The notes under the pieces were generated by a model. That model ran no database searches and was not told the origin of the DNA. It saw only the letters and a program-made list of their open reading frames with translations. From NCBI GenBank assembly GCA_958295805.1, contig OY282373.1:1273001-1337000 (forward strand): a stretch of DNA of 64,000 nucleotides, written 5' to 3'. This document shows positions 26,528-53,970 of this stretch, piece after piece. Position 1 is the first letter of the stretch, and each line of letters begins with the position of its first letter. The position numbers were made by a program, and so were the translations under genes. Source of the stretch: an uncultured Nitrospirales bacterium. Its GTDB lineage: Bacteria; Nitrospirota; Nitrospiria; Nitrospirales; UBA8639.

Positions 26528-27045
26528 GTTCAATGACTTTGTCGCAGCGCGAGCGTATCGCGCCTGGCAGCAGGCCGATTTGCTGAGTCGTTGTTGGCCG
26601 CATGAGATGCGGCCGCGACAGAGAGCTGATGTTCAATGGCGTTGTCGCGGCGCGATCTCATCGCGCCTGTCGGCACGCGAATGTGGTGAGTTGTTATTGG
26701 CCGGATGAGATGCGGCCGCGACAGAGAGCTGATGTTCAATGGCGTTTGTCGCGGCGCGATCTCATCGCGCCTGTCGGCACGCGAATGTGGTGAGTTGTTA
26801 TTGGCCGGATGAGATGCGGCCGCGACAGAGAGCTGATGTTCAATGGCGTTTGTCGCGGCGCGATCTCATCGCGCCGGGCAGCACGCGAATGTGGTGAGTT
26901 GTTATTGGCCGGATGAGATGCGGCGGCGACAGAGAACTGATGTTCAATGACTTTGTCGCGGCGCGATCTCATCGCGCCTGTCGGCACGCGACTTTGCTGA
27001 GTCGTTGTTGGCCGCATGAGATGCGGCGGCTACAGAAGGCTGATT
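26528..27045. repeat. Five-copy ~104-bp tandem repeat with paired palindromes
   Basis: Units begin with GTTCAATG at 26528, 26631, 26734, 26838 and 26942, a period of 103-104 bp. Each unit carries two palindromes: GGCGCGATCTCATCGCGCC and a GGCCGGATGAGATGCGGCC-type arm. The first is the reverse complement of the 19-bp palindrome found near 39841, 50989 and 53364-53701. The inner copies (2-4) are nearly identical and the outer ones diverge. No gene is present, though open frames run through in every direction. Confidence 0.92.
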
Positions 27046-33405: not shown

Positions 33406-33903
33406 GTGCCGGAGACGCGGGATAGAGCGCCGGTGACGCCCAAGGCTTGTATCGTCGATACCAATGTCATCGTTTCGGGTTTGATCGGCGCGGACCCGAA
33501 CGGCCCCCCGGCGCGAATCCTGGACGCCATGCTTGATGGTGACCTCCTGTACCTCATGTCAGCCGACTTGCTCACCGAGTATTCGTCCGTGTTGCGCCGT
33601 CCGCGTCTCGTCCGATTCCATGGACGGACGGACGACGAAATCGACCGGCTACTTACCGATTTGATCGCCAATGCCCTATGGCGCGAGCCTATCACCAGCG
33701 TCGATGCCCCCGATACCGGCGACACCCACCTGTGGACGCTGCTCGCCAGCCATCCGCAAGGACAACTCGTCACGGGTGACCGGCTTCTTCTCAATAATCC
33801 TCTGAGAGGTGCGTCTGTGATTTCCCCTCGTCGTTTCGTGGATACATTTTTATCGCCGAAAGAGACCCCTTCCCGTAGTATTGGGCCAGACACGGTAGGG
33901 TAG
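33406..33903 (+). CDS. PIN-domain toxin (COG1569-like)
   Basis: The 165-residue protein has the PIN nuclease pattern: D in CIVDTNVIVSG, E in LTEYSSVLRRPR, D in DTGDTHLWTLL and D in LVTGDRLLL. These acidic residues bind the metal for RNA cleavage. GTG 33406 or GTG 33433 could be the start; both keep the domain whole. The last ~25 residues extend beyond the usual domain end. It is paired with the RHH antitoxin just upstream. Confidence 0.82.
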   Translation: MPETRDRAPVTPKACIVDTNVIVSGLIGADPNGPPARILDAMLDGDLLYLMSADLLTEYSSVLRRPRLVRFHGRTDDEIDRLLTDLIANALWREPITSVDAPDTGDTHLWTLLASHPQGQLVTGDRLLLNNPLRGASVISPRRFVDTFLSPKETPSRSIGPDTVG

Positions 33904-33965: not shown

Positions 33966-34286
33966 CTAGGCCACCTTCGTTTCCTGGGGCTTGGCCTGTA
34001 CCGTCAGTTTCAACCCAACGCTCTCCAACATCGCCTCAAGGGTAGAAAAGCGAGGATTGCCCTTGCGGGACAACGTGCGGTACAGGCTCTCACGGCTCAG
34101 TTGCGTCTCCCGGGCGAGCCGTCCGATGCCGCGAGCCTTGGCGACGTCACGGAGGGCCAACAGAAAGGTCTCAGTCCCTTTTTCGGATTCGTCCTCCAGT
34201 GCCGCGTTCAAATACGCCGCGGCTTCTTCGGGGTCTTGGAGGTCCTGATAGAGGATGTCTTCATACGGAACGGTTCGCTTTGGCAT
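33966..34286 (-). CDS. HigA-like (COG3636) antitoxin
   Basis: The 106-residue protein starting MPKRTVPYEDIL has a C-terminal HTH typical of putative addiction-module antidotes (IGRLARETQLSRESLYRTLSRKGNPRFSTLEAML). ATG 34286 has a GGGAGAT site and starts 4 bp after the toxin stop; the longer frame from 34322 overlaps the toxin. It is likely both repressor and antitoxin of the pair. Confidence 0.88.
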   Translation of the reverse strand: MPKRTVPYEDILYQDLQDPEEAAAYLNAALEDESEKGTETFLLALRDVAKARGIGRLARETQLSRESLYRTLSRKGNPRFSTLEAMLESVGLKLTVQAKPQETKVA

Positions 34287-34290
34287 AGGC

Positions 34291-34584
34291 TTATCTCCCG
34301 TTATAGTCGGCCCAATACTCATGAGCCTTTTTGATATCCGTTGCTTGTGTTCGCTTCGTTCCCCCGTACAAAAGGAGAATGCAACGGTCGTCTTGTCCGA
34401 TGTACACGCGGTATCCTGGGCCGATGTCTATCCGCAACTCCACCACCCCGTGCCCGACTGATCGATGATCTCCCGGATTTCCCAAACGGAGCCGCGCGAT
34501 CCTGACGCGAATGCCGTTTCGCACTTTCTGGTCCGTCAGTTTGCGCAGCCAATCCGCAAACGGGGTATGCCCATCGGCTGCCAC
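34291..34584 (-). CDS. RelE/HigB-type toxin, possibly short at the N-terminus
   Basis: The 97-residue protein has the family core PFADWLRKLTDQKVRNGIRVRIARL, ELRIDIGPGYRVYIGQDD and ILLLYGGTKRTQATDIKKAHEY. The only in-frame start is GTG 34584. Family-like residues (VAAYV) continue upstream with no start codon before an in-frame stop, so the natural N-terminus may be damaged. A dispersed repeat begins about 70 bp upstream. Antitoxin follows 4 bp later. Confidence 0.8.
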   Translation of the reverse strand: MAADGHTPFADWLRKLTDQKVRNGIRVRIARLRLGNPGDHRSVGHGVVELRIDIGPGYRVYIGQDDRCILLLYGGTKRTQATDIKKAHEYWADYNGR

Positions 34585-35053: not shown

Positions 35054-38000
35054 ATGCTGATTATCAAGCCGTATGGTAGAAGTCACACGGAGTTTGACGA
35101 CGGGAAAACTCCCAGAAGGAAAATTCGCAGAAACCAGACTCCCGATGTCCTGCAAAACACCCTCGTTGACGTTAAAGAGTTTGCAAAAACCCATCCCGAA
35201 CTCATCATCGCGCAATGGATTTCTGCCATTGACAAAATTGCGACCAAGCCTCACGGCAACAAGAACCCGACACCCAAACAGCGACGCTTCCGTGAGAAAA
35301 TCGGTAAAGCCGCATTTAACCTCATGACTCAGAAGGAGTTTCCCGACGTGTCCGGCAGGAAAGAGGAACTCGAAAGGTTGTGGCAATCAAAGCTTCATCC
35401 ATACGAGGCCAATGAAAAGACAAATAAAAATCCAAATCCAAACAAACCCCCGTCGCCAAAAGGTCGTTGGTACGAAAGGTTTGCAGGTGACGTGAAACCC
35501 TATGAGGTTGATGCCGCGGAAATTGCTAAGAAAATTGAACGCCATCTTTACGAAAAGGAATACCGGATCAAACCGGACAGACCAGACAAAGGCCAAGGCC
35601 GAATAGCGGCCAGGGCCGAGAGCATTGCCAAGAGCGTACCGGCGCAGTTGTCGCAGTTCCCGGACGGAAGCCACCCCTGGTCGGAATGCCACAAGGAAGA
35701 GTACAAAAAGGCCGGTGACGTTGCGACCGAGATACATCGAAAGGCCTTGGAAGTGGAGAAAGATCAGCATGGCCGAGGCATGTTTTCGGTACGGGACGTT
35801 GCGCCGATTCTGTACGACCAGTACGGCAAACTATTCAGAGATGGAGAGAAGCCTCTTCCTGTTGCCGACGCCTGCGAGAGGTTTCCCGGATTATTCAAGC
35901 TTCATCGTGCCGTCAAGGACACCTACACCCGCATCCTCAAGAATCACAGAACCCTCAAGAGCAAGAAAAAGCGGTCCGTGTCCCATGCCCTTCCAGCCAG
36001 CATGGAGAGCCTGTTCCGTCTGGTCGAAGCCAAATCGGACAATCGCGATCTCAATGCCCTCGTGCGTCTTGGCAAGATCATCCACTACGAGACCACCCCC
36101 GAGTCCGGCGAGGATACGCCAAGCAACGTCGTCGCCGACAGGCCAGATGACCTCGAAGGCAGCCGATACCGAACCAGCGAGGGCCAAGCGGAGATCAAGC
36201 GCACCGAAGCCTTCGTGCGCGTGTGGCGCAATACCATCGCGCTTGCCGCACGGACGCTAACGGACTGGGCGGACCCCGACGGAAAGATCGGCGGCGACAT
36301 CTTGTTGAAAGTCGAGAAGGCGACTGGCGAGAAATTCGACACAACCGCCTACGGCAAAAAGCTCCCCTTCCTGTTTGGCAAGCAGTCCGGTCCGTTTGCG
36401 AGGGAGGACGACTGTTTCAGAAAATCGGTGCTGCGCTTGGCCCTGAAGGGATGGGCCGAACTGCGCCACTCATCGTTTCATTTCAAGGGACGTGGTGCTT
36501 TCGTCAAGGCATTGAAGGAGAGTTTCACAAGCGCCGAAGACGACGCTGTTGGCGTTGTGCGTGGACTCCTGAAAGACGACCTTGATGGACGACGAGACCG
36601 ATTGATCGCAGTCCTTCAGGCCGCACACGTCGAACATTATTTCGCTCAAGAGCATCTCAAGGCGGTCGTTGATGCCGTCGTCAACGCAGAGTTGCGGCAA
36701 TCGCCTCTACCTCGATTCCGCCGCGTCCTGGACCGCGCAAAGAACGCTTGGAACCGCCAACTCTACATCCTGCGTCTACCGCCGCCCGACAATCGGGCCG
36801 AACTCGAAAAACCGGGACGTCAGTGTCGATACGTGACCGTAAAGACCCTGTACGAACGGGCCTTTCCGGCGTGGTTGGAAAGACAATCCGCCGCAACGTT
36901 GAACAGATGGATCAAGCGTGCGGTTGAACGCACAACTGCGGCCGCAAAATCCATCAACGAATTGGCCATCGCTAGGGCGGCCAGCCTGATCCGACTGGGC
37001 GACGGAGAAGGCATTGCGCATTTCTTCGATCATCTGTCCGCGGCGACGGCAACCGAACTTCGCGTCCAACGCGGCTACGACAGTGACGCGGACAATGCAC
37101 GAAAACAGTCCAAATACATTGATGACCTGCGGTGCGACGTGGTGGGGCAGGCGTTCGAGGAGTACTTGAAGACGGCCAAATTGTCTTGGGTACTGGACGA
37201 TCTGGGCGATGGATCGCTCCCGGAGAAGAAGCGCAGCAATCTGGATGACGTTTCGCAGCCGGCATCGAACCCGACCCAAGAGAAGATGAAAGATTGGGAG
37301 GCCGTTCTGTACTTCCTGCTTCATCTCGTGCCGGTGGATGCGGTCGGCCGTTTGCAGCACCAGCTTCATAAGTGGTCCATCCTTGAAAAGAAGAGTGCTG
37401 TGGCAGTCAAAGAACGGACATCCAGCTTGGCAGACTCTACAGGACGAATCTTCGAACTCTACCTTGACATGCACGACGCCAAGTTCGAGGGCGGCGAAGG
37501 CATGATCGGCGCCGAGGCACTCAAGAGTCTGTTCAAGTCTAAGGAGGTGTTTTCCCGGGCCTGTCCTGGTCAGCCGGGCCAGGACGCCGACCGATACGTG
37601 CCCTGGCGCGGTCTGCGGGAGATTCTGCGGTTCGGTTGTCTCAGACCGTTGATGCCGATTTTTCAGGAACATGTCATTAAGGCCGAGAAAGTGGACGAAT
37701 TGACTAACTGGGAAAACGTGTCGGACGGCGACTCTCGCATTGCTAAACAGCAGAAGGAACGGGAAGAACTTCATACGAAATTGGTCAAGAAGAATAGGAC
37801 TTCCGAGGAAGACAAGACAGCCTATTGCAAGGCCCTTGCCGACGTGGTCCGACATCGGCATCTCGTTGCTCACGTTCGTCTCAACAATCATGCGCGTCTG
37901 CATGGCCTGTTGATGGGGGTTCTTGGACGCTTGGTCGATTATGCCGGGTTGTGGGAGCGCGATCTGTATTTCACCACGCAGGCACTTGTCTGGCTTCGGA

Positions 38001-38641
38001 AAAAAAGTCAGGGGGATGTTTTTCAAGACAAGGGACTTGAATTTCCGAAGAATGGTCAAATCGTCAAGGCGCTCAGAAAACTTGAGAATCCAGGCGACGA
38101 CGGGAAGGCGATTGTTGAGCAACTGAAAAGACTGTTCGGAGAGAATTTTCTGGATGGCAAATGCGGTGCTGCTTCCGTTCGCAACAACCTGATGCACTTC
38201 AACATGTTGCAAGACAAGAAACCGATTCTCAACCTGACCGAAACCGTCAACGACACGCGAAGGCTCATGGCCTACGACCGTAAACTGAAGAACGCGGTCT
38301 CCCAATCAATCAAGGAAATGCTGGCGCGGGAAGGACTTGACCTGACGTGGGAGATGAGGGGGCATCGGCTCGAATGTGCGAAAATCAAGGTGCGGCAGGC
38401 CATTCACCTGAAGAACGAGAGAATCAAGGAAAATTTGCACGGCGAGCCGTTCGTCAAGATGGCGGCGTCCTTGTTCGGCGGCGAGCAAGAGCCGTCGAAT
38501 GATGACGTTCTTTCGGTTGACCTGGACAAGATCCAATGGGACCGGCAGCCCGGACAGAATCCAAAAGGCGAGTGGAAAACTCATCGGAATCGGAGCGAAA
38601 ATCGTGGAAATAAGGGCAATTCTTCGCCGAGGAAAAGATAA
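35054..38641 (+). CDS. cas13a: Cas13a (type VI-A CRISPR RNA-guided RNase)
   Basis: The 1195-residue protein carries two HEPN R-x4-H motifs: RHSSFH (R471-H476) mid-protein and RNNLMH (R1043-H1048) near the C-terminus. This is the spacing of Cas13a; Cas13b has HEPN motifs near both ends. Segments resemble my recollection of Rhodobacter capsulatus Cas13a: IAQWISAIDKI (52-62), YDSDADNARKQ (675-685), GRLVDYAGLWERD (958-970) and AYDRKLKNAV (1073 on). No alignment was run. It should process crRNA, bind complementary RNA, then cut target and bystander RNA. TGGAGG lies 5 nt before ATG 35054. The array starts 35 bp after the stop, same direction. No cas1/cas2 or accessory gene is nearby. Confidence 0.93.
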   Translation: MLIIKPYGRSHTEFDDGKTPRRKIRRNQTPDVLQNTLVDVKEFAKTHPELIIAQWISAIDKIATKPHGNKNPTPKQRRFREKIGKAAFNLMTQKEFPDVSGRKEELERLWQSKLHPYEANEKTNKNPNPNKPPSPKGRWYERFAGDVKPYEVDAAEIAKKIERHLYEKEYRIKPDRPDKGQGRIAARAESIAKSVPAQLSQFPDGSHPWSECHKEEYKKAGDVATEIHRKALEVEKDQHGRGMFSVRDVAPILYDQYGKLFRDGEKPLPVADACERFPGLFKLHRAVKDTYTRILKNHRTLKSKKKRSVSHALPASMESLFRLVEAKSDNRDLNALVRLGKIIHYETTPESGEDTPSNVVADRPDDLEGSRYRTSEGQAEIKRTEAFVRVWRNTIALAARTLTDWADPDGKIGGDILLKVEKATGEKFDTTAYGKKLPFLFGKQSGPFAREDDCFRKSVLRLALKGWAELRHSSFHFKGRGAFVKALKESFTSAEDDAVGVVRGLLKDDLDGRRDRLIAVLQAAHVEHYFAQEHLKAVVDAVVNAELRQSPLPRFRRVLDRAKNAWNRQLYILRLPPPDNRAELEKPGRQCRYVTVKTLYERAFPAWLERQSAATLNRWIKRAVERTTAAAKSINELAIARAASLIRLGDGEGIAHFFDHLSAATATELRVQRGYDSDADNARKQSKYIDDLRCDVVGQAFEEYLKTAKLSWVLDDLGDGSLPEKKRSNLDDVSQPASNPTQEKMKDWEAVLYFLLHLVPVDAVGRLQHQLHKWSILEKKSAVAVKERTSSLADSTGRIFELYLDMHDAKFEGGEGMIGAEALKSLFKSKEVFSRACPGQPGQDADRYVPWRGLREILRFGCLRPLMPIFQEHVIKAEKVDELTNWENVSDGDSRIAKQQKEREELHTKLVKKNRTSEEDKTAYCKALADVVRHRHLVAHVRLNNHARLHGLLMGVLGRLVDYAGLWERDLYFTTQALVWLRKKSQGDVFQDKGLEFPKNGQIVKALRKLENPGDDGKAIVEQLKRLFGENFLDGKCGAASVRNNLMHFNMLQDKKPILNLTETVNDTRRLMAYDRKLKNAVSQSIKEMLAREGLDLTWEMRGHRLECAKIKVRQAIHLKNERIKENLHGEPFVKMAASLFGGEQEPSNDDVLSVDLDKIQWDRQPGQNPKGEWKTHRNRSENRGNKGNSSPRKR

Positions 38642-38676
38642 TTTCTTGCATGATGACAAGCACTTATGCCATAGCG

Positions 38677-39900
38677 GTTCGAGATGACCCCCAAATGAAG
38701 GGGGACTACACCATGAAACATTCGCTCAACCGCGCCAAAGACGGTTCGAGATGACCCCCAAATGAAGGGGGACTACACCTCTCGATCAGGTTGCCCATGC
38801 GTCTGGGTGGTTCGAGATGACCCCCAAATGAAGGGGGACTACACCCCCACCAATCACTTCAACACCCACCGATAGGTTCGAGATGACCCCCAAATGAAGG
38901 GGGACTACACCACCGAAAACGGTGCCGTGCTCATCGTCGGCGTTCGAGATGACCCCCAAATGAAGGGGGACTACACCCCTGGCCGCCTTTGTCCATGCGC
39001 ATGGCCCAGTTCGAGATGACCCCCAAATGAAGGGGGACTACACCCTAATTCATTGAGCGTATCGAGTGCGCCTGGTTCGAGATGACCCCCAAATGAAGGG
39101 GGACTACACCTCCTTTTCTTTCGATTGTTGACGGCGCATTGTTCGAGATGACCCCCAAATGAAGGGGGACTACACCCCTTTGGATCGCAACGCCGAGGGA
39201 TTGGATGTTCGAGATGACCCCCAAATGAAGGGGGACTACACCATGAGACCTTTACCGGTGAAAGGATTTAGCGTTCGAGATGACCCCCAAATGAAGGGGG
39301 ACTACACCTTTGCTCGACTGTAGGCATAGCAATTCTCCGTTCGAGATGACCCCCAAATGAAGGGGGACTACACCCGCGGGCGATGGCTCGGCACTTGTTG
39401 ATGTGTTCGAGATGACCCCCAAATGAAGGGGGACTACACCAGCGTGAGACTCGCCACTGTGCCAGGCTCTGTTCGAGATGACCCCCAAATGAAGGGGGAC
39501 TACACCAAAATCAGCCATGAGAATTACCTCCCTATAGTTCGAGATGACCCCCAGATGAAGGGGGACTACACCTCCAATAGCGAATGAGGTAACTGGTCTT
39601 TTGTTCGAGATGACCCCCAGATGAAGGGGGACTACACCTTGACCAGCGTACACAGCGACCAATCGTCTGTTCGAGATGACCCCCACATGAAGGGGGACTA
39701 CACCTGCAAAACGATTTTGGCTGCCGCACGACCAAGTTCGAGATGACCCCCAATGAAGGGGGACTACACCGTCAAGATCGACAAAGGCATCTTGCAGCCG
39801 AGTTCGAGATGACCCCCAAATGAAGGGATTACACCCGTTCGGCGCGATGAGATCGCGCCCTACAAGTTCGAGATTCCCAAATGAAGGGGGATCTGAACCA
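38677..39900 (+). CRISPR. Type VI-A CRISPR array, 18 repeats plus a degenerate 19th
   Basis: The 36-nt repeat is GTTCGAGATGA, then stem CCCCC, loop AAATGAA, stem GGGGG, then ACTACACC. Repeats 1-13 (38677 to 39506) are identical. Repeats 14 and 15 (39537, 39603) and 16 (39669) differ by one loop base; 17 (39736) lacks one A; 18 (39802) is short; a remnant lies at 39866-39900. Eighteen spacers are 30-31 nt. Decay at the far end puts the leader side next to cas13a. The hairpin position and the GGACTACACC-like 3' end resemble Cas13a repeats, so crRNA should be read on the plus strand with the repeat 5' of the spacer. No cas adaptation genes flank it. Confidence 0.97.
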
Positions 39901-40065: not shown

Positions 40066-40359
40066 TTAAGCAAGAGGCTGGACAGTCAATTTGAATCCAA
40101 GTGCTTTTGCTACTTTGGCTACGGTGGAAAAAGAGGGATTTCCTTCGCTTGACAAGGCCTTATACAAGCCTTCACGGGTCAGGCCGCTATCGCTGGCGAG
40201 TTGGCTCATATTGCGGGCGCGGGCGATCACTCCTAATGCGTGGACAATGAATGCAGGATCATCTCCCGCCTCTTCCAGGCAGGCTTCGAGGTAAAGCTGA
40301 ATATCTTCGTCGGTTTTGAGATATTCCGCTGAGTCCCAGCGGGTTGTTGTAACAGGCAT
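40066..40359 (-). CDS. HigA-like antitoxin, orphan
   Basis: The 97-residue protein has the same family core as the antitoxin at 33966 (MSQLASDSGLTREGLYKALSSEGNPSFSTVAKVAKALG). It is intact, with ATG 40359 just after the stop of a toxin remnant, so the pair has lost its toxin. The GGAGAT preceding the start is retained. It may still act as a repressor or protect against related toxins. Confidence 0.85.
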   Translation of the reverse strand: MPVTTTRWDSAEYLKTDEDIQLYLEACLEEAGDDPAFIVHALGVIARARNMSQLASDSGLTREGLYKALSSEGNPSFSTVAKVAKALGFKLTVQPLA

Positions 40360-40362
40360 AGT

Positions 40363-40446
40363 TTAATCTCCTAATTTGCTGGCTAGTTCTTGGGCCTTTG
40401 AGACGTCGGCCTGTTTTTCACCGTCACAGAGTAGTACGACAACGCG
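40363..40446 (-). pseudogene. C-terminal remnant of a RelE-family toxin
   Basis: Read on the minus strand the segment gives VVVLLCDGEKQADVSKAQEL and then ASKLGD-stop, the end of a RelE/HigB-like toxin directly before its antitoxin. All upstream parts are missing; the sequence joins the 3' end of hsdS in another frame near 40440. This marks a deletion or recombination joint. Confidence 0.75.
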
Positions 40447-41299
40447 GCCCGTTCGGCTCCAGGGCCTCATGCAGCAGCACGTCAAGCAGCCGCTCCTGCA
40501 CATCATCCCCAGTAGCCAAGTTCCCTTCCAGCCGGTCGCAGACGGTCATCAGTTCATCGACCTTGGTAACGATGCGGCGTTGTTCGGGAAGGGGCGGGAG
40601 GGGGACTTGCCAATTCTGAGCAAGACCAGCGGTCAATTCGACTTGTTTCGTAGAGCCTGCTGCCCGGTCTTCAATGATGCCGTAAACATGGTCGGACCGA
40701 AGCCAAGTCCGAATATATTCTTGAACAACATGAGGGCATCGAACGAGTGTTACATGGCTATCGCAAACCAGTTTGACAGGCGGACAGGTAACGCGAACAA
40801 CTCTCCCAATTGTTCCTGTTCCAGTCGAATTCCATAGCAAATCTCCGTCACGCAAGAATCTGTAGGCTTCATAATCTTCCAGTGATGCTGATGTAATTTC
40901 TTTTGCAACGCTTAAGTCGAGTCCGCTCCATTGTACACATTTCTGAGAAACGACCGGAATTCCTGTACCTGTTGCATACATGGGAGATTTTCCCCTTTGC
41001 ATGTACGTTACGATATTCCCAATGCGTGCCCAGCACCAACCTTCGGGTATGGCAAAAATTTCTTCATCTTTGTTCAATTCTTTAAGAACCGCCACTCTCT
41101 TAATCTTCCCCGTTTTCTCCAACCGTGCCTTTTCCTTCGCAATCCGCTTCAGCAACTCCGTCGCCGGCTCATCCTTCGGGTCCTGCGGCACCAACTTCCC
41201 TCGCACGGCCAGGTCCAGAATGAACCGCCGCAGCCGTTGCACGGACTCCGGCGACTGAATCAGCCGGTCGAAGTTGCTGAACAGCGTCTTGATGCTCAT
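40424..41299 (-). CDS. hsdS: Half-length HsdS specificity subunit
   Basis: The 291-residue protein has a conserved HsdS N-terminus (SVQRLRRFILDLAVRGKLVP and DEPATELLKRIAKEKARLEK), one target-recognition domain (~90-225), and the usual C-terminal conserved block (PPLPEQRRIVTKVDELMTVC, LLDVLLHEALEP). Full S subunits of this family have two recognition domains and are about twice as long. The last residues (after ALEP) read into the toxin remnant. Its ATG overlaps the small RHH gene by 4 bp. It may dimerise as a half subunit, or be a deletion product. Confidence 0.83.
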   Translation of the reverse strand: MSIKTLFSNFDRLIQSPESVQRLRRFILDLAVRGKLVPQDPKDEPATELLKRIAKEKARLEKTGKIKRVAVLKELNKDEEIFAIPEGWCWARIGNIVTYMQRGKSPMYATGTGIPVVSQKCVQWSGLDLSVAKEITSASLEDYEAYRFLRDGDLLWNSTGTGTIGRVVRVTCPPVKLVCDSHVTLVRCPHVVQEYIRTWLRSDHVYGIIEDRAAGSTKQVELTAGLAQNWQVPLPPLPEQRRIVTKVDELMTVCDRLEGNLATGDDVQERLLDVLLHEALEPNGPRCRTTL

Positions 41300-41517
41300 A
41301 TCTTCAGTGTTTCGCGTACTTCGGTAGCCGAATAGACCGGCTCCGTCCCGGTGAGGACACGCTCCAGAACGTCTATCGCAAGATAGTAATCTTCCAGGTC
41401 TTCAATGCCGCGTTCGATAAGTTCACGCAGGTAGAACGCTTTGCTGCGGCCGGTCTGTGACATTGGAAAGTTGATCTGCTGTTTGGTGTCGGGAGTGAGT
41501 TGAATCGCGGTTGGCAT
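41296..41517 (-). CDS. RelB-type ribbon-helix-helix antitoxin
   Basis: The 73-residue protein contains MSQTGRSKAFYLRELIERGI followed by EDLEDYYLAIDVLERV, the ribbon-helix-helix and toxin-binding tail of RelB/DinJ-like antitoxins. A relE would normally follow; here hsdS follows with a 4-bp overlap instead. It may be a leftover antitoxin that now serves as a leader gene or regulator of hsdS. Confidence 0.78.
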   Translation of the reverse strand: MPTAIQLTPDTKQQINFPMSQTGRSKAFYLRELIERGIEDLEDYYLAIDVLERVLTGTEPVYSATEVRETLKI

Positions 41518-41629
41518 GTTGTCTTTTCTGGTTTTGTGCTTGGCTGTACTTTTTTATCATATATTTTCTCGGAGGGTCGGGGTCGGGAGTATTGTAGGTT
41601 GCTTGGTTCTTCACGGTCCTGCCGCATCT

Positions 41630-41702
41630 GGAACCCCCCACCGGCTCGCCGGCGGGCTTCGCCCTTGGCTTGCCGACTCCCCCTCAAGGGGGGAGTGATA
41701 GG
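41630..41702. repeat. Single copy of the 149-bp repeat core
   Basis: CCCCCCACCGGCTCGCCGG, a TTGGCTTGCCGACTCCCCCT stretch and the hairpin CTCCCCCTCAAGGGGGGAG match the core of the five-copy repeat at 46649-47312. It lies in the 271-bp gap between the RHH gene and the hsdM relic. Confidence 0.85.
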
Positions 41703-41788
41703 CATCGGGTTTGCCGACTTTCTGAGGGGATGGCAAAGGGGTACGGCCATGCGGGGAAGTTGGGGTATGTCTTACTGGGGTTGCTCAT

Positions 41789-41930
41789 TTATCGTGTCAG
41801 TGCCTTCGTTAATATTGTCTTCAGTCGGTTGCGTAAGGTGCGGTCTTGGCCTCGGCGGTGGTCAGTCTGGCCAGCAACTCTTTGGGGTTGCCGTGGTTGG
41901 TCTCTGCGGTGTGCGGGTTTTTGACGTTTA
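41789..41930 (-). pseudogene. 3'-end relic of a second hsdM
   Basis: On the minus strand the segment reads VKNPHTAETNHGNPKELLAR and then LTTAEAKTA, and after a frameshift TLRNRLKTILTKALTR followed by a TAA. The intact hsdM at 42436 ends with IKNPHTAQADHGNPEELLAK and TLRERLKTILGEALGR. The relic is similar but not identical, so it came from a different allele, and the rest of that gene is gone. Confidence 0.85.
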
Positions 41931-41961
41931 TGACAGCCTGTCCGCGCGTTGAAGCGCCGTA

Positions 41962-42147
41962 TCAGGTTGCTGCGGGGTCCTCGTCCGCGGATCTCTTTGC
42001 GGTCTCAATCAATCGATTCTGGTACTGCTTCTGCATTTCCATGTAATAGAGTACCAACTGTGTAGGGTCATGACCAAAGTGCGCGGAGATGCGGTGCCGC
42101 ACTTCTCGAATCTCGTCAATGACCGTGTCACTCAAGTTCTGTTTCAT
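41962..42147 (-). CDS. Small protein coupled to a PIN gene
   Basis: The 61-residue protein starts EIREVRHRISAHFGHDP near residue 12 and resembles short partners encoded just downstream of some PIN toxins, although I cannot name a family. It has a good GGAGGGACCG site and overlaps the truncated PIN frame by 4 bp. Intact in itself. Confidence 0.6.
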   Translation of the reverse strand: MKQNLSDTVIDEIREVRHRISAHFGHDPTQLVLYYMEMQKQYQNRLIETAKRSADEDPAAT

Positions 42148-42338
42148 CGGTCCCTCCTAAGAGTTCCAGCGGGGTTACTCACGCAGGCACAAAAAGAGGT
42201 GACGAGTTCGTAGTTCTCCGGCGCAGTGTCCCACCATCGCCGGGTCCATTCCCTGCGCGCCACGATGTCGGGGGCAGAACGCTTTTCATGGTAAAAGCTG
42301 GGGATTGAGGTCTCAACATAGACGCGTGGTTTTGTCAT
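42144..42338 (-). pseudogene. PIN-domain protein, truncated after ~49 residues
   Basis: The first part (MTKPRVYVETSIPSFYHEKR and DIVARREWTRRWWDTAPENY) is a normal PIN N-terminus. After ELVTS the frame turns into unrelated residues and stops, so two-thirds of the domain and later catalytic acids are missing. An internal deletion that kept the next gene's ribosome-binding site is the simplest reading. Confidence 0.75.
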
Positions 42339-42435
42339 ATCGGGAAGATACCACCCTCAGCCTTTGAACAACAATCATGACTAAAGCGAGCCATCCCAAA
42401 AACAGCTTCGCCGGTTTTAGCAGTGTACTTGGTGC

Positions 42436-43893
42436 TCATCGCCCCAGCGCCTCCCCCAGTATCGTCTTCAACCGTTCCCGTAAGGTTGCGGTCTCTGCCT
42501 CGGCCGCGGCCAGCTTCGCCAGCAACTCCTCCGGGTTGCCGTGGTCGGCTTGTGCGGTGTGCGGGTTTTTGATGTCGAGGTTGTAGCCGCGTGCTTTGAT
42601 GTCGTCCGCGGTCACTTTCCAGGCGCGGTCGGTTGTTTTGCGGCCTTTGCGTTGTGGGCCGCCCCACCAGTTGATGCAGGGTTGCAGGTGTTCCAGCCGG
42701 ATGGGTTTGGTCATGGAATAGGCTTTTTGGCCTTCGGGGACGTGGTGTTCGTAGAACCAGATTTTTCGGGTCGGCTCGCCTTTCTCGAAGAACAGCAGGT
42801 TGGTGCCGATGGAGGCGTAGGGTTTGAAGACGGAGTTGGGCAGGCGGACGATGGTGTGGAGGTTGCACTCTTCCAACAGGTGTTCTTTGAGGCGGGTCTT
42901 GACGCCTTCGCCGAACAGGGAGCCGTCGGGGAGGACGACCGCGGCGCGCCCGCTCGGTTTCAACAGTCGGACGATGAGGGCCAGGAACAGGTCTGCGGTT
43001 TCCTTGGTGCGGAAGTGCTGGGGGAAGTTGCTTTCGATGCCGTCTTCTTCTTTGCCGCCGAAGGGCGGATTGGTCAGCACAATATTGACCCGGTCTTTCT
43101 TTTCCCAGCCGACGTAGGGGCGGGCCAGGGTGTTGTCGTGACGCACGAAGCTGGGATCCTCAATGCCGTGCAGGAGCATGTTGGTGACGCACAGCATGTG
43201 CGGAAGTTGTTTTTTCTCAACGGCGCGCAGGCCGGCTTGCATTTTCCGTTCGTCCCCGGGCCGCTTGACGTAATGCTCGCGCATGTGGGCCAGCGCGCAG
43301 GTCAGGAACCCGCCGGTGCCGCAGGCCGGGTCGAACAGGGTTTCGCCGGGCTTGGGGTCGATGCGGTCGGCCATGAACGCGGTGACCGCGCGCGGGGTGT
43401 AGTATTCGCCGGCGTTGCCCGCGGATTGCAGATCGTTCAAAAGCTGTTCGTAGATGTCGCCGAAATGCTGGCGTTGGGTCAGGTTATTGAAGTCAACGGC
43501 GTTGATTTTGTTCACCACTTGGCGCATGAGTTGGCCGGATTTCATGTAGTTGTAGGCGTCCTCGAACACGTCGCGCACGACGCGGCCGCGATTGTCCGGC
43601 CGGCCGGTGGTCCGGAGGTTTTTCAAGGCGGGGAAGAGGTCGTCGTCAATGAAGGTGAGCAGTGCTTCACCGGTGATGCCTTCGGGGTTTGCGGCCCAGG
43701 TATGCCACTGGAACCGTTCCGGGATGGGGGAGGTGTAGTCTGCCTTCATCAGTGCCAGTTCCTGGTCCTGATCGTCGATGATCTTGAGGAAGAACATCCA
43801 GCACAATTGGCTGATGCGCTGGGCGTCGCCGTCCACGCCGGTGTCCTGGCGCATGACGTTCTGGATGGATTTGACCAGGGTGCGGACGGACAT
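42436..43893 (-). CDS. hsdM: Type I restriction-modification methylase
   Basis: The 485-residue N6-adenine methylase has the HsdM N-terminal helical domain (to ~150), GEYYTPRAVTAFM, SAM motif I FDPACGTGGFL (187-197) and catalytic NPPF (275-278). It methylates the target site as M2S and protects host DNA. Start ATG 43893 is 3 bp after the hsdR stop. The C-terminal helix would contact HsdS. Its usual hsdS partner is separated from it by a PIN relic, a small gene and an hsdM relic. Confidence 0.95.
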   Translation of the reverse strand: MSVRTLVKSIQNVMRQDTGVDGDAQRISQLCWMFFLKIIDDQDQELALMKADYTSPIPERFQWHTWAANPEGITGEALLTFIDDDLFPALKNLRTTGRPDNRGRVVRDVFEDAYNYMKSGQLMRQVVNKINAVDFNNLTQRQHFGDIYEQLLNDLQSAGNAGEYYTPRAVTAFMADRIDPKPGETLFDPACGTGGFLTCALAHMREHYVKRPGDERKMQAGLRAVEKKQLPHMLCVTNMLLHGIEDPSFVRHDNTLARPYVGWEKKDRVNIVLTNPPFGGKEEDGIESNFPQHFRTKETADLFLALIVRLLKPSGRAAVVLPDGSLFGEGVKTRLKEHLLEECNLHTIVRLPNSVFKPYASIGTNLLFFEKGEPTRKIWFYEHHVPEGQKAYSMTKPIRLEHLQPCINWWGGPQRKGRKTTDRAWKVTADDIKARGYNLDIKNPHTAQADHGNPEELLAKLAAAEAETATLRERLKTILGEALGR

Positions 43894-43896
43894 GAC

Positions 43897-46338
43897 TCAG
43901 GCGGTCTCCTGGTAGAGAGCGGATTGCAGGTCGCGGACGGCTTCTATGAATTGATCCTTGCCGCCGAAGGCTTTGAGCAACTGTACCGGCGTGCCGAGGG
44001 TGTTCAACGGCGGGATGCGCAGCACGTTGGCGTCGTCGAGGTTGAGCACGCCTTCGTCGGCGTACTTGTCGAGCAGCGCGTTGAGCACGGTGCGGGCCTG
44101 GTATCCGTACTTTCTGAACACGTTGCGTTTTTGGACGTTCGCGGCGCGCTCGCGGCGTGTCAGCGGCTTGGCGTCAAAGGCCACGTGGCAGATGAGATCG
44201 AAGGGGTCGAGATTCTTGCCGAGTTCCTCGGCGATGGTATCGAGTGCCAAGCCTTCGGCCGCAAGTTCGTCAATGACGGCTTGTTTGCGTTCGGCGGCCT
44301 TCCATCGCTTGAGAAAGTCATCAAGGCTGGCGAAGCGTTTCTTCAGCGCCTTCTTGGTGAAGTCGCGCAAGGACTCGGTGACGAGTTTGCCGTGTTCGTC
44401 AAGGTATTGCACGCGCTGGGCAATGATTGTCGCGTCGATGCCGTCAACGTAAACCTTGCTCTTGATCGCGGCGTCAGGCTGGAGCCCTGGTGAAATTTCG
44501 ACAATGGTTTCGTCGTCGGCCGGTTCAGGCGGGAGAGGGGCTTCGCCGTCCTCCGTGCGCGGCGCGTGGTCGGGCGGAGTGATGGGATCGCCTGTTCCCG
44601 GTTCGTATATCTGCACCGGCTCGCCGTCGAAGTCCGGGTCGGCAAAATGGCTGGTTGCGCCCCGGAAGTCCATCAAGGTGAAGTAGAATTTGTGGGTGTC
44701 CTCGTGGACGCGGGTGCCGCGTCCGACGATCTGTTTGAATTCGGTCATGGACCCGACTTCGCGGTCCAGCACGATCAGCCGGCAGGTCTGGGCATCGACG
44801 CCGGTGGAGAGCAGCCGCGAGGTGGTGACCAGCACGGGGTATTTGGATTCCGGGTCAATGAAGTTACCGAGTTGCGCTTGCCCTTCGGCATCGTTGCCGG
44901 TGACGCGCATGACGTAGCGGTGGTTGTCGCCGGCCAGGTCGGCGTTCTCGTTGATGAGCGCCTGTCTTATGCGGGCGGCGTGTTCCTGGTCGACGCAGAA
45001 GATGATCGTTTTCTGAAAGCGGTCGCCGCTTTCTTTCAGGAATCCGGTGACGTTGCGGGCAACGGCCCGTGTGCGGCCGTCCAGCACCAGGGTTTTGTCG
45101 AAATCCTTGGGGTTGTAGACGCGGTCTTCTACCGGTTCGCCTTCCCGTGACAGTTGACCTTTTTCCGGGCGGTAGCCTTCCACGTCCCGGTCGATGTGAA
45201 CTTTGATGACTTTGTAGGGGGCGAGGAAGCCGTCGCGGATGCCTTGTTTCAGGGAGTAGGAATAGACCGGCTCGCCGAAGTAGTCGATGTTGGAGACGTA
45301 TCGGGTTTCCTTGGGCGTGGCGGTCAGGCCGATCTGCGTGGCCGTGGAGAAGTATTCCAGAATTTCCCGCCAAGCCGAATCCTCCTTGGCGCTGCCGCGG
45401 TGACACTCGTCAATCACGATCAGGTCAAAAAAGTCAGGTGAAAACTCACGGAAAATCTTCTGGTCTTCCTCCGGGCCGGTGATGGCCTGATAGAGACCCA
45501 GATAGATTTCATAGGCGGCGTCGATGCGGCGTTTTTTGCCGGCGGCGGTCAAGTCCTCCGTGGACCCGTCCCGGCGTTCGATGGTTTTGGCGTTGGTCGA
45601 GAGCTTGGCCATGGCCGCACCAAAGGGACGGAAGTCGTTGACCATGGTCTGATCCACCAGCACGTTGCGGTCGGCCAGGAACAGAATCCGCTTCTTGCGG
45701 CCCGCCTTCCACAGCCGCCAGATGATCTGAAAGGCGGTGTAGGTTTTGCCGGTTCCCGTGGCCATGACGAGCAGGATGCGGTCGCGGCCTTTGGCTATGG
45801 CCTCTATCGCGGTGTTGACGGCGTTGATCTGGTAATAACGGGGGGCTTTGTCGCTGCCGTCTTCGTAATAATCCTGAAGCACGATGGCTTCGGCTTCGGG
45901 TGTCAACCCTTTCCACGTCCGGTAGCGTGCCCACAGGTCGTTTGGTGATGGGAAGGCATCGAGGGCAAGCGTCGTTTCTTTTTCGGCGCCTCCGCCGGTT
46001 CGGTCGTGGAACACGAAGCCGTCGCCGTTGGAGGAGAAGACGAAGGGAATCCCCAGCGTCTCGGCGTAGTCAAGTGCCTGTTGCATCCCGTCGCCGACGG
46101 CGTGGGCGTTGTCCTTGGCCTCAATCAGCGCGATGGGGACGTTGGGCTTGTAGGACAGCACGTAGTCGGCTCGCTTGGCCTTGCCCCGGCTGACCAGCTT
46201 GCCGCGTACGATGATGCGGCCTTTGGTGAAGCTGACTTCTTCGCGGATTTGCCCCATCTCATCCCACCCGGCTTTGCGCAGGGCCGGGGTGATGAACTTG
46301 GTGCAGACGTCGCGTTCGCTCAGGCTTTTCTTCTCCAT
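43897..46338 (-). CDS. hsdR: Type I restriction endonuclease, EcoEI-like R subunit
   Basis: The 813-residue protein has an N-terminal nuclease domain (D58, E73-A-K75 in LIEAKDNAH), an SF2 helicase/translocase with Walker A ATGTGKT (193-199) and DECH (310-313), then motif VI-like QIVGRGTRVHED and an EcoEI-type C-terminal region. The length matches the EcoEI (type IB-like) class. It cuts unmethylated DNA after translocation in an R2M2S complex. All catalytic motifs look intact, so the R-M system's weak point is the short HsdS. Confidence 0.95.
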   Translation of the reverse strand: MEKKSLSERDVCTKFITPALRKAGWDEMGQIREEVSFTKGRIIVRGKLVSRGKAKRADYVLSYKPNVPIALIEAKDNAHAVGDGMQQALDYAETLGIPFVFSSNGDGFVFHDRTGGGAEKETTLALDAFPSPNDLWARYRTWKGLTPEAEAIVLQDYYEDGSDKAPRYYQINAVNTAIEAIAKGRDRILLVMATGTGKTYTAFQIIWRLWKAGRKKRILFLADRNVLVDQTMVNDFRPFGAAMAKLSTNAKTIERRDGSTEDLTAAGKKRRIDAAYEIYLGLYQAITGPEEDQKIFREFSPDFFDLIVIDECHRGSAKEDSAWREILEYFSTATQIGLTATPKETRYVSNIDYFGEPVYSYSLKQGIRDGFLAPYKVIKVHIDRDVEGYRPEKGQLSREGEPVEDRVYNPKDFDKTLVLDGRTRAVARNVTGFLKESGDRFQKTIIFCVDQEHAARIRQALINENADLAGDNHRYVMRVTGNDAEGQAQLGNFIDPESKYPVLVTTSRLLSTGVDAQTCRLIVLDREVGSMTEFKQIVGRGTRVHEDTHKFYFTLMDFRGATSHFADPDFDGEPVQIYEPGTGDPITPPDHAPRTEDGEAPLPPEPADDETIVEISPGLQPDAAIKSKVYVDGIDATIIAQRVQYLDEHGKLVTESLRDFTKKALKKRFASLDDFLKRWKAAERKQAVIDELAAEGLALDTIAEELGKNLDPFDLICHVAFDAKPLTRRERAANVQKRNVFRKYGYQARTVLNALLDKYADEGVLNLDDANVLRIPPLNTLGTPVQLLKAFGGKDQFIEAVRDLQSALYQETA

Positions 46339-50559: not shown

Positions 50560-51391
50560 CTGCTTTGAAATTATAAGTAATGACTTATCTAAAGTCTATG
50601 CTGACAATTTACAATCGGAGTACACCTTAATCAAATCCTCAGACTGTCCAGAGGACCAGAACCACGTCACTGACGGCATTCAATTGAAAACTGAACGATG
50701 GCTGATTCTTGACGATACCATCCTGCCCCATCCTAGCCGTGGGCTGCAATCTTTGGTACGATTCCTCATCCTGTCTTTCACACTCTGTAGTTCTTTCTGA
50801 TTCACAATAAGAAGATGAGCCTCATTTCAGATATAGACGGAGAGGAATCCCTATTCTTTGGGATCGTTGTGGCTCTCTTTTTCTTCGTTCCTCCGTAGCT
50901 GCGCCATCTCATGGCGCATTGTCATGAGATTCGAGACTCGTCGTGAGATTCGAAACGGTCCCACATTTTGTGTGAATGTTGAGGGGGGAGGCGCGATGAG
51001 ATCGCGCCGCTACGAATTCGTCATGAGATTCGAGACGGTCCTAAATCTTGTGTGAACGTTGAGGAGGGAGGCGCGATAAGATCGCGCCGCTACGAACGAT
51101 GGGGCGGGAATCGAGTACATTCAATAAATCAGGATGCCAGTCAAAGCTACTTGAGAGCGAGGCGACGCTTGCCCTGAGCTTGCCCTGAGTCTCGAAGGGG
51201 TTCCCCTGTGAGTCTCGAAGGGAAGAATCTTCAGTGTGCCGGCCTGTCCTACGACAGGGCACTTAGATTCTTCGCTTCGCTCAGAATGACATTTGGAGGA
51301 TGACATTTTCCCCGTAATTCGGCGTCTGACGGTAATTTTTGCAGTCTCCGGTGGCCGGCTGGAAGGGGGATGAAACGTCTGGTGAATTTCT
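50560..51391. repeat. Intergenic palindromic-repeat region, copy 1
   Basis: No gene is supported in these 832 bp. The block has two units containing the palindrome GGCGCGATgAGATCGCGCC (50989-51007) or its T-to-A variant (51070-51088), flanked by GAGATTCGAGACGGTCC-like sequence, and then an AGCGAAGCGAAG-family inverted repeat (about 51173-51290). Confidence 0.85.
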
Positions 51392-53052: not shown

Positions 53053-53970
53053 TACGTCATCTCCTTTTCCAGTTCCACTGCCCCGATGATACCATCCTGC
53101 CCCATCCTAGCCGTGGGCTGCAATCTTTGGTACGATTCCTCATCCTGTCTTTCACACTCTGTAGTTCTTTCTGATTCACAATAAGAAGATGAGCCTCATT
53201 TCAGATATAGACGGAGAGGAATCCCTATTCTTTGGGATCGTTGTGGCTCTCTTTTTCTTCGTTCCTCCGTAGCTGCGCCATCTCATGGCGCATTGTCATG
53301 AGATTCGAGACTCGTCATGAGATTCGAAACGGTCCTACATTTTGTGTGAATGTTGAGGGGGGAGGCGCGATAAGATCGCGCCGCTACGGACTTGGCGTGA
53401 GATTCGAAACGGTCCCGAATTTTGTGTGAATGTTGGGGGGGAGGCGCGATAAGATCGCGCCGCTACGAATTTGTCATGAGATTCGAAACGGTCCCTAATT
53501 TTGTGTGAACGTTGAGGGGGGAGGCGCGATGAGATCGCGCCGCTACGGATTTGTCGTGAGATTCGAGACGGTCCTAAATCTTGTGTGAACGTTGAGGGGG
53601 GAGGCGCGATAAGATCGCGCCGCTACGGACTTGGCGTGAGATTCGAGACGGTCCTAAATCTTGTCTGAATGTTGGGGAGGGAGGCGCGATGAGATCGTGC
53701 CGCTACGAACGATGGGGCGGGAATCGAGTACATTCAATAAATCAGGATGCCAGTCAAAGCTACTTGAGAGCGAGGCGACGCTTGCCCTGAGTCTCGAAGG
53801 GAAGAATCTTCAGTGTGTCGGCCTGTCCTACGACAGGGGACTTAGATTCTTCGCTTCGCTCAGAATGACATTTGGAGGATGACATTTTCCCCGTAATTCG
53901 GCGTCTGGCGGTAATTTTTGCAGTCTCCGGTGGCCGACTGGAAGGGGGATGAAACGTCTGGTGAATTTCT
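53053..53970. repeat. Intergenic palindromic-repeat region, copy 2 (five units)
   Basis: No gene is supported here. Five units with the GGCGCGAT(A/G)AGATCGCGCC-type palindrome start at 53364, 53443, 53523, 53603 and 53683, a period of ~80 bp. The fifth has CGTGCC in place of CGCGCC. Copy 1 has only two. An AGCGAAGCGAAG-family arm (TTCGCTTCGCTCAGAATGAC) closes the block near 53850. Confidence 0.92.

Follow-up and report, generated by a model that had tools for sequence, protein, structure and literature searches.

An open reading frame for a large protein, followed almost directly by a CRISPR array, in the chromosome of a Nitrospira-like bacterium raises three questions: whether it is a complete type VI-A (Cas13a) locus, how it came to be in such a host, and where its array obtains spacers when no cas1 or cas2 gene lies nearby. 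We addressed these in a 64-kb stretch of DNA (hereafter the window) that is part of a 2.90-Mb single-contig chromosome. Our results favor, with a probability of roughly 0.93, a horizontally acquired and apparently complete VI-A locus that uses the mechanism of its family and receives spacers through Cas1–Cas2 encoded elsewhere in the chromosome.

The effector gene, its array and its leader

The 1195-residue protein is Cas13a. Its gene (35054–38641, plus strand) is an intact frame of 1195 codons starting with ATG, and an initial annotation, made from the sequence without database searches, had proposed this identity. The curated Cas13a profile of NCBIfam, NF038188, matches the protein along the whole profile (positions 1–1192 of 1192, 789.9 bits with a cut-off of 150 bits, E = 5e-237), and the PADLOC Cas13a profile scores 753.1 bits. 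A Pfam profile search returned no Cas13a match, which we take to be a gap in the Pfam library. The two HEPN motifs, R471-HSSF-H476 and R1043-NNLM-H1048, lie exactly where they had first been placed, and both R-x4-H motifs are unchanged in 10/10 aligned relatives. The early impression of likeness to Rhodobacter capsulatus Cas13a was also borne out: that protein (PDB 7os0) is the best solved relative by sequence (E = 1.3e-101) and the best structural match to an AlphaFold2 model whose alignment input came only from loci gathered in the present analysis (pLDDT 73.7; Z = 32.0 across 998 residues, sequence identity about 27–29%), followed by other Cas13a chains (Z = 15–27) and then by Cas13d and Cas13b. 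The significant profile match, the Cas13a fold of the predicted structure and the HEPN motifs thus agree and confirm the assignment. Cas13a is a well-known family, and a member this far from its nearest solved relative could be worth comparing with others as a possible RNA tool.

The array (38677–39899, plus strand) comprises 19 repeats of 34–36 nt and 18 spacers of 30–31 nt, and is separated from the cas13a stop codon by 35 bp (38642–38676), the same spacer count and gap that the initial annotation had given. Repeats 1–13 are identical, repeats 14–16 carry one change each, and repeats 17–19 are shortened and degenerate. By the usual rule, this gradient means that new spacers enter on the cas13a side and that the far end is oldest, in agreement with the orientation first assigned. 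The repeat ends in GGACTACACC and can fold into a CCCCC/GGGGG stem with a 7-nt loop (−9.8 kcal/mol), as had been proposed. Across 10 loci the 5-bp stem is present in all sequences, with 100% of cells paired and six cells altered on both sides (compensatory changes), and its covariation score was matched by 0/500 shuffles and by no slid register. This pattern of covariation supports the view that the VI-A repeat forms an RNA hairpin. In VI-A crRNAs the guide lies 3′ of the repeat, and VI-A systems are reported to be without the leader-repeat hairpin seen in VI-B (PMC13187072).

The 35 bp between gene and array (plus strand) are non-coding and probably act as the leader. Their alignment to the leaders of two Binatia loci (G396 and G403) was reached by 0/1000 shuffles, and they are also conserved, less strongly, with the leader of a Sphingomonadales metagenome-assembled genome (MAG), G400. 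Such conservation fits a functional leader and agrees with a joint transfer of the gene and its array. A search for sigma-70-type promoters around the locus gave no match, a result of little weight in a host of this kind. Our data show the cas13a gene with its two catalytic motifs and its fold, and the array with its repeat stem and polarity; crRNA processing, target cleavage, collateral activity and antiviral activity we infer from the family. The array would be transcribed from the cas13a side and the transcript cut by Cas13a within the repeats, giving crRNAs that consist of a 5′ repeat hairpin and a guide. RNA complementary to the guide would then activate the paired HEPN site, which would cut both target and bystander RNA and so stop the phage or the infected cell.

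Host, distribution and genomic setting

The proposed Nitrospira-like identity of the host holds up. Against Kuenenia nitrite oxidoreductase A, its NxrA scores 1561 bits, and the two ends of the contig (1–602 and 2903652–2904372) break an nxrB-like gene for an iron-sulphur subunit beside NxrA, the pattern that a circular chromosome would give if opened within this gene. The start of the host NxrB presumably resembles the Nitrospira protein, and a 16S search of the host genome gave no match. Together, these data support a Nitrospira-like nitrite oxidizer with Nitrospira-type NxrAB.

Cas13a is exceptional in this lineage, being found in 1/236 genomes examined of the host's order and 1/396 sampled in its phylum, and absent from the other 13 genomes examined of the host genus. 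The nearest Cas13a proteins belong to two Binatia MAGs (61–63% identity) and then to an alphaproteobacterial MAG (53%), and a tree groups the present protein with the Binatia and alphaproteobacterial proteins with support of 96/97 (the Binatia grouping) and 100/100. Because only one of the 236 genomes of the order carries Cas13a and its nearest proteins are in Binatia MAGs, the locus was probably acquired horizontally, which is the simplest reading. No report of Cas13a in nitrite-oxidizing bacteria was found in the literature searched; our data extend the range of Cas13a to these organisms and document the same locus in three phyla.

More distant Cas13a genes also occur in viral sequence collections. 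Two IMG/VR entries, 3300002334_000361 (L013:1–6551) and 3300002334_000353 (L014), each hold a Cas13a gene, 43–44% identical, and an array. There the gene and array adjoin two phage genes, one for a portal protein (PF04860) and one for a large terminase subunit that has a gpP-like domain (PF03237, PF17289, PF06056), and the VI-A locus of these entries is apparently carried by a P2-like prophage.

Toxin-antitoxin and restriction genes flank the cas13a locus on both sides. Upstream lie a PIN-family toxin gene (33406–33903) and an intact RelE/ParE-type toxin-antitoxin pair with an HI1420-family antitoxin (33966–34584); downstream lie a second HI1420-family antitoxin (40066–40359) and a type I restriction system (40424–46338). 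Of the RelE-type partner of the second antitoxin, only the final two dozen codons seem to be left (about 40372–40445, minus strand), and this remnant lies at the start of the type I restriction operon. No cas1 or cas2 gene is found near cas13a, all four cas1 genes of the genome lying elsewhere. The initial description of the system as stand-alone is therefore right for the locus but does not hold for the chromosome, where four further CRISPR-Cas loci (at 146–165k, 258–277k, 2309–2328k and 2838–2857k) each have a cas1 gene: II-C (with Cas9 and a type II Cas1), I-G, I-B (of the MYXAN kind) and III-A. With VI-A, this makes five CRISPR systems in 2.9 Mb. A further repeat flagged by the array finder at 53.3 kb of the window is an 80-nt tandem repeat and not a CRISPR array.

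Spacers and their source

The leader-proximal spacer, by position the newest of the array, is informative. Spacer 1 (38713–38743, plus strand) matches the sense strand of the host's own icd gene at 31/31 positions (chromosome 2171864–2171894, codon 611 of the frame), which encodes a monomeric NADP isocitrate dehydrogenase (TIGR00178, 1239.9 bits). Since genus relatives differ from spacer 1 by 3–5 bases at this site, the source of the spacer was this strain or one very near to it, a sign of recent acquisition within the present host lineage. Spacer and gene have the same sense and the array is read from the leader, so the crRNA would equal the mRNA and could not pair with it. Copied from icd, spacer 1 would be tolerated owing to this orientation, in which there is no mRNA target, and the same spacer reversed would be expected to trigger Cas13a; as a single spacer, it cannot show a strand bias.

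Matches for the remaining spacers are few. A search across the host-genus genomes gave credible matches only for spacers 1 and 18, both in the host itself, and one full protospacer in all. Within spacer 18, at the leader-distal end (39836–39865, plus strand), lies a palindrome, GGCGCGATGAGATCGCGCC, that is scattered over the host genome and occurs at 12 places in the window with at most 2 mismatches, one of them spacer 18 (others at 26649–26978, 50990–51088 and 53293–53760, partly inside the 80-nt tandem repeat at 53.3–53.8 kb). This spacer may yield no crRNA, because the repeats that flank it are degenerate. Searches by blastn found no credible phage or plasmid target, a single 28-nt plasmid match (93%, E = 0.7) being taken as chance, and five 20-nt spacer cores had no phage match in IMG/VR. 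No spacer is common to any of the five host arrays, which have only 12-nt chance overlaps.

New spacers would probably be taken from DNA by Cas1–Cas2 encoded elsewhere in the chromosome, with the II-C pair as the likeliest source. Among the other host arrays, only II-C shares the 30-nt spacer length of VI-A: VI-A spacers measure 30–31 nt and II-C spacers exactly 30 nt (21/21), with I-G at 36–38, I-B at 34–37 and III-A at 34–36 nt. In the relative G400, the VI-A and II-C leaders (L006:12130–12207 and L050:10510–10590) have in common an element of about 31 nt that ends 42 nt before the first repeat, and each of these two loci has its core, CGAGTCAGAA, a single time (0/1000 shuffles). Spacer length and this relative together suggest, tentatively and at somewhat short of even odds, that II-C Cas1–Cas2 supplies the VI-A array. 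Cas9 is present in 6/12 carriers of this Cas13a group, compared with 19/392 genomes of the host phylum and 26/189 of the class of G401, and in 4/9 of the carriers counted as alphaproteobacterial (P = 0.03), a small and partly non-independent set of which the tree tool assigns one member, L004 (Micavibrio), to a different phylum. Within the host's own genus, 5/14 genomes have Cas9. We regard the co-occurrence of Cas9 and Cas13a as suggestive only. One possibility, again held tentatively, is that a cas1-less branch of VI-A systems is fed by II-C Cas1–Cas2 acting strand-blind on DNA, such that host-derived spacers enter and only those in the sense orientation persist.

Supply by the Cas1–Cas2 of another resident system (I-B, I-G or III-A), or arrival of the spacers inside an array already filled in a previous host, is possible if doubtful. 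The chromosome has four cas1 loci to choose from, the host VI-A leader has no significant likeness to the host's other leaders, that of II-C included, and half of the carriers of this Cas13a group are without Cas9; Rhodovulum VI-A arrays, which have 29–30-nt spacers in a genome that lacks Cas9, likewise count against II-C supply. Yet spacers measure 34–38 nt in the I-B, I-G and III-A arrays and exactly 30 nt in that of II-C, and the match of spacer 1 to a gene of the present host means that at least one spacer was gained in this lineage.

An array that is a relic beside an intact effector, with acquisition ended and little immunity conferred, is unlikely. Degenerate repeats at positions 17–19, spacers that found no phage match where searched, and the distance to any cas1 or cas2 gene would all be expected of such a relic, but the first 13 repeats are identical, the leader is conserved, the 1195-codon frame is intact with all catalytic residues, and spacer 1 matches this strain's version of icd and not those of its relatives, which speaks for recent acquisition. 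Finally, with all 31 nt identical to part of a conserved host gene, spacer 1 might be read as a regulatory guide directed against an antisense RNA of icd, but guide and icd mRNA have the same sense and no antisense transcript is known here, making this highly improbable.

Comparison with known systems

The present locus belongs to a known subtype, VI-A, without adjacent cas1 and cas2 and in an unusual host, and is not a new kind of system. Compared with the VI-A effector of R. capsulatus (7os0), its Cas13a is a full-length homologue with the same fold and both HEPN motifs, but at about 27–29% identity and from a host of a different phylum. The closest counterparts are the loci of the Binatia MAGs (L002 and L009) and the alphaproteobacterial MAG (L007), which likewise have the array directly downstream and a 36-nt repeat of the same design; the leader is common to the present locus and the two Binatia loci, while spacers and host phyla differ throughout. 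Cas13a clade 1 of Toro et al. (2019) is mostly alphaproteobacterial and comprises loci with RT-Cas1 and Cas2 as well as loci without an adaptation module (PMC6753606). Relatives of the present Cas13a are of that kind. The present locus differs from the VI-A/RT variant in lacking RT-Cas1 and Cas2, and its host is Nitrospira-like where the paper gives Alphaproteobacteria and one Spirochaetia sequence (PMC6753606).

The nearest precedent for the proposed spacer supply comes from Flavobacterium columnare, in which a VI-B array without cas1 was shown by experiment to be supplied by the II-C Cas1, and takes up host spacers, many of the gained spacers not targeting mRNA (PMC8092290). Here too, a cas1-less type VI array resides with a II-C locus that has its own Cas1 and a matching spacer length, but the effector is VI-A rather than VI-B, and cross-supply, experimental in F. 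columnare, is a reading of genomic evidence in our case. If this reading is true, cross-type adaptation would extend from VI-B to VI-A. The sense self-spacer and the shared G400 leader make the spacer source of cas1-less Cas13 systems testable in VI-A.
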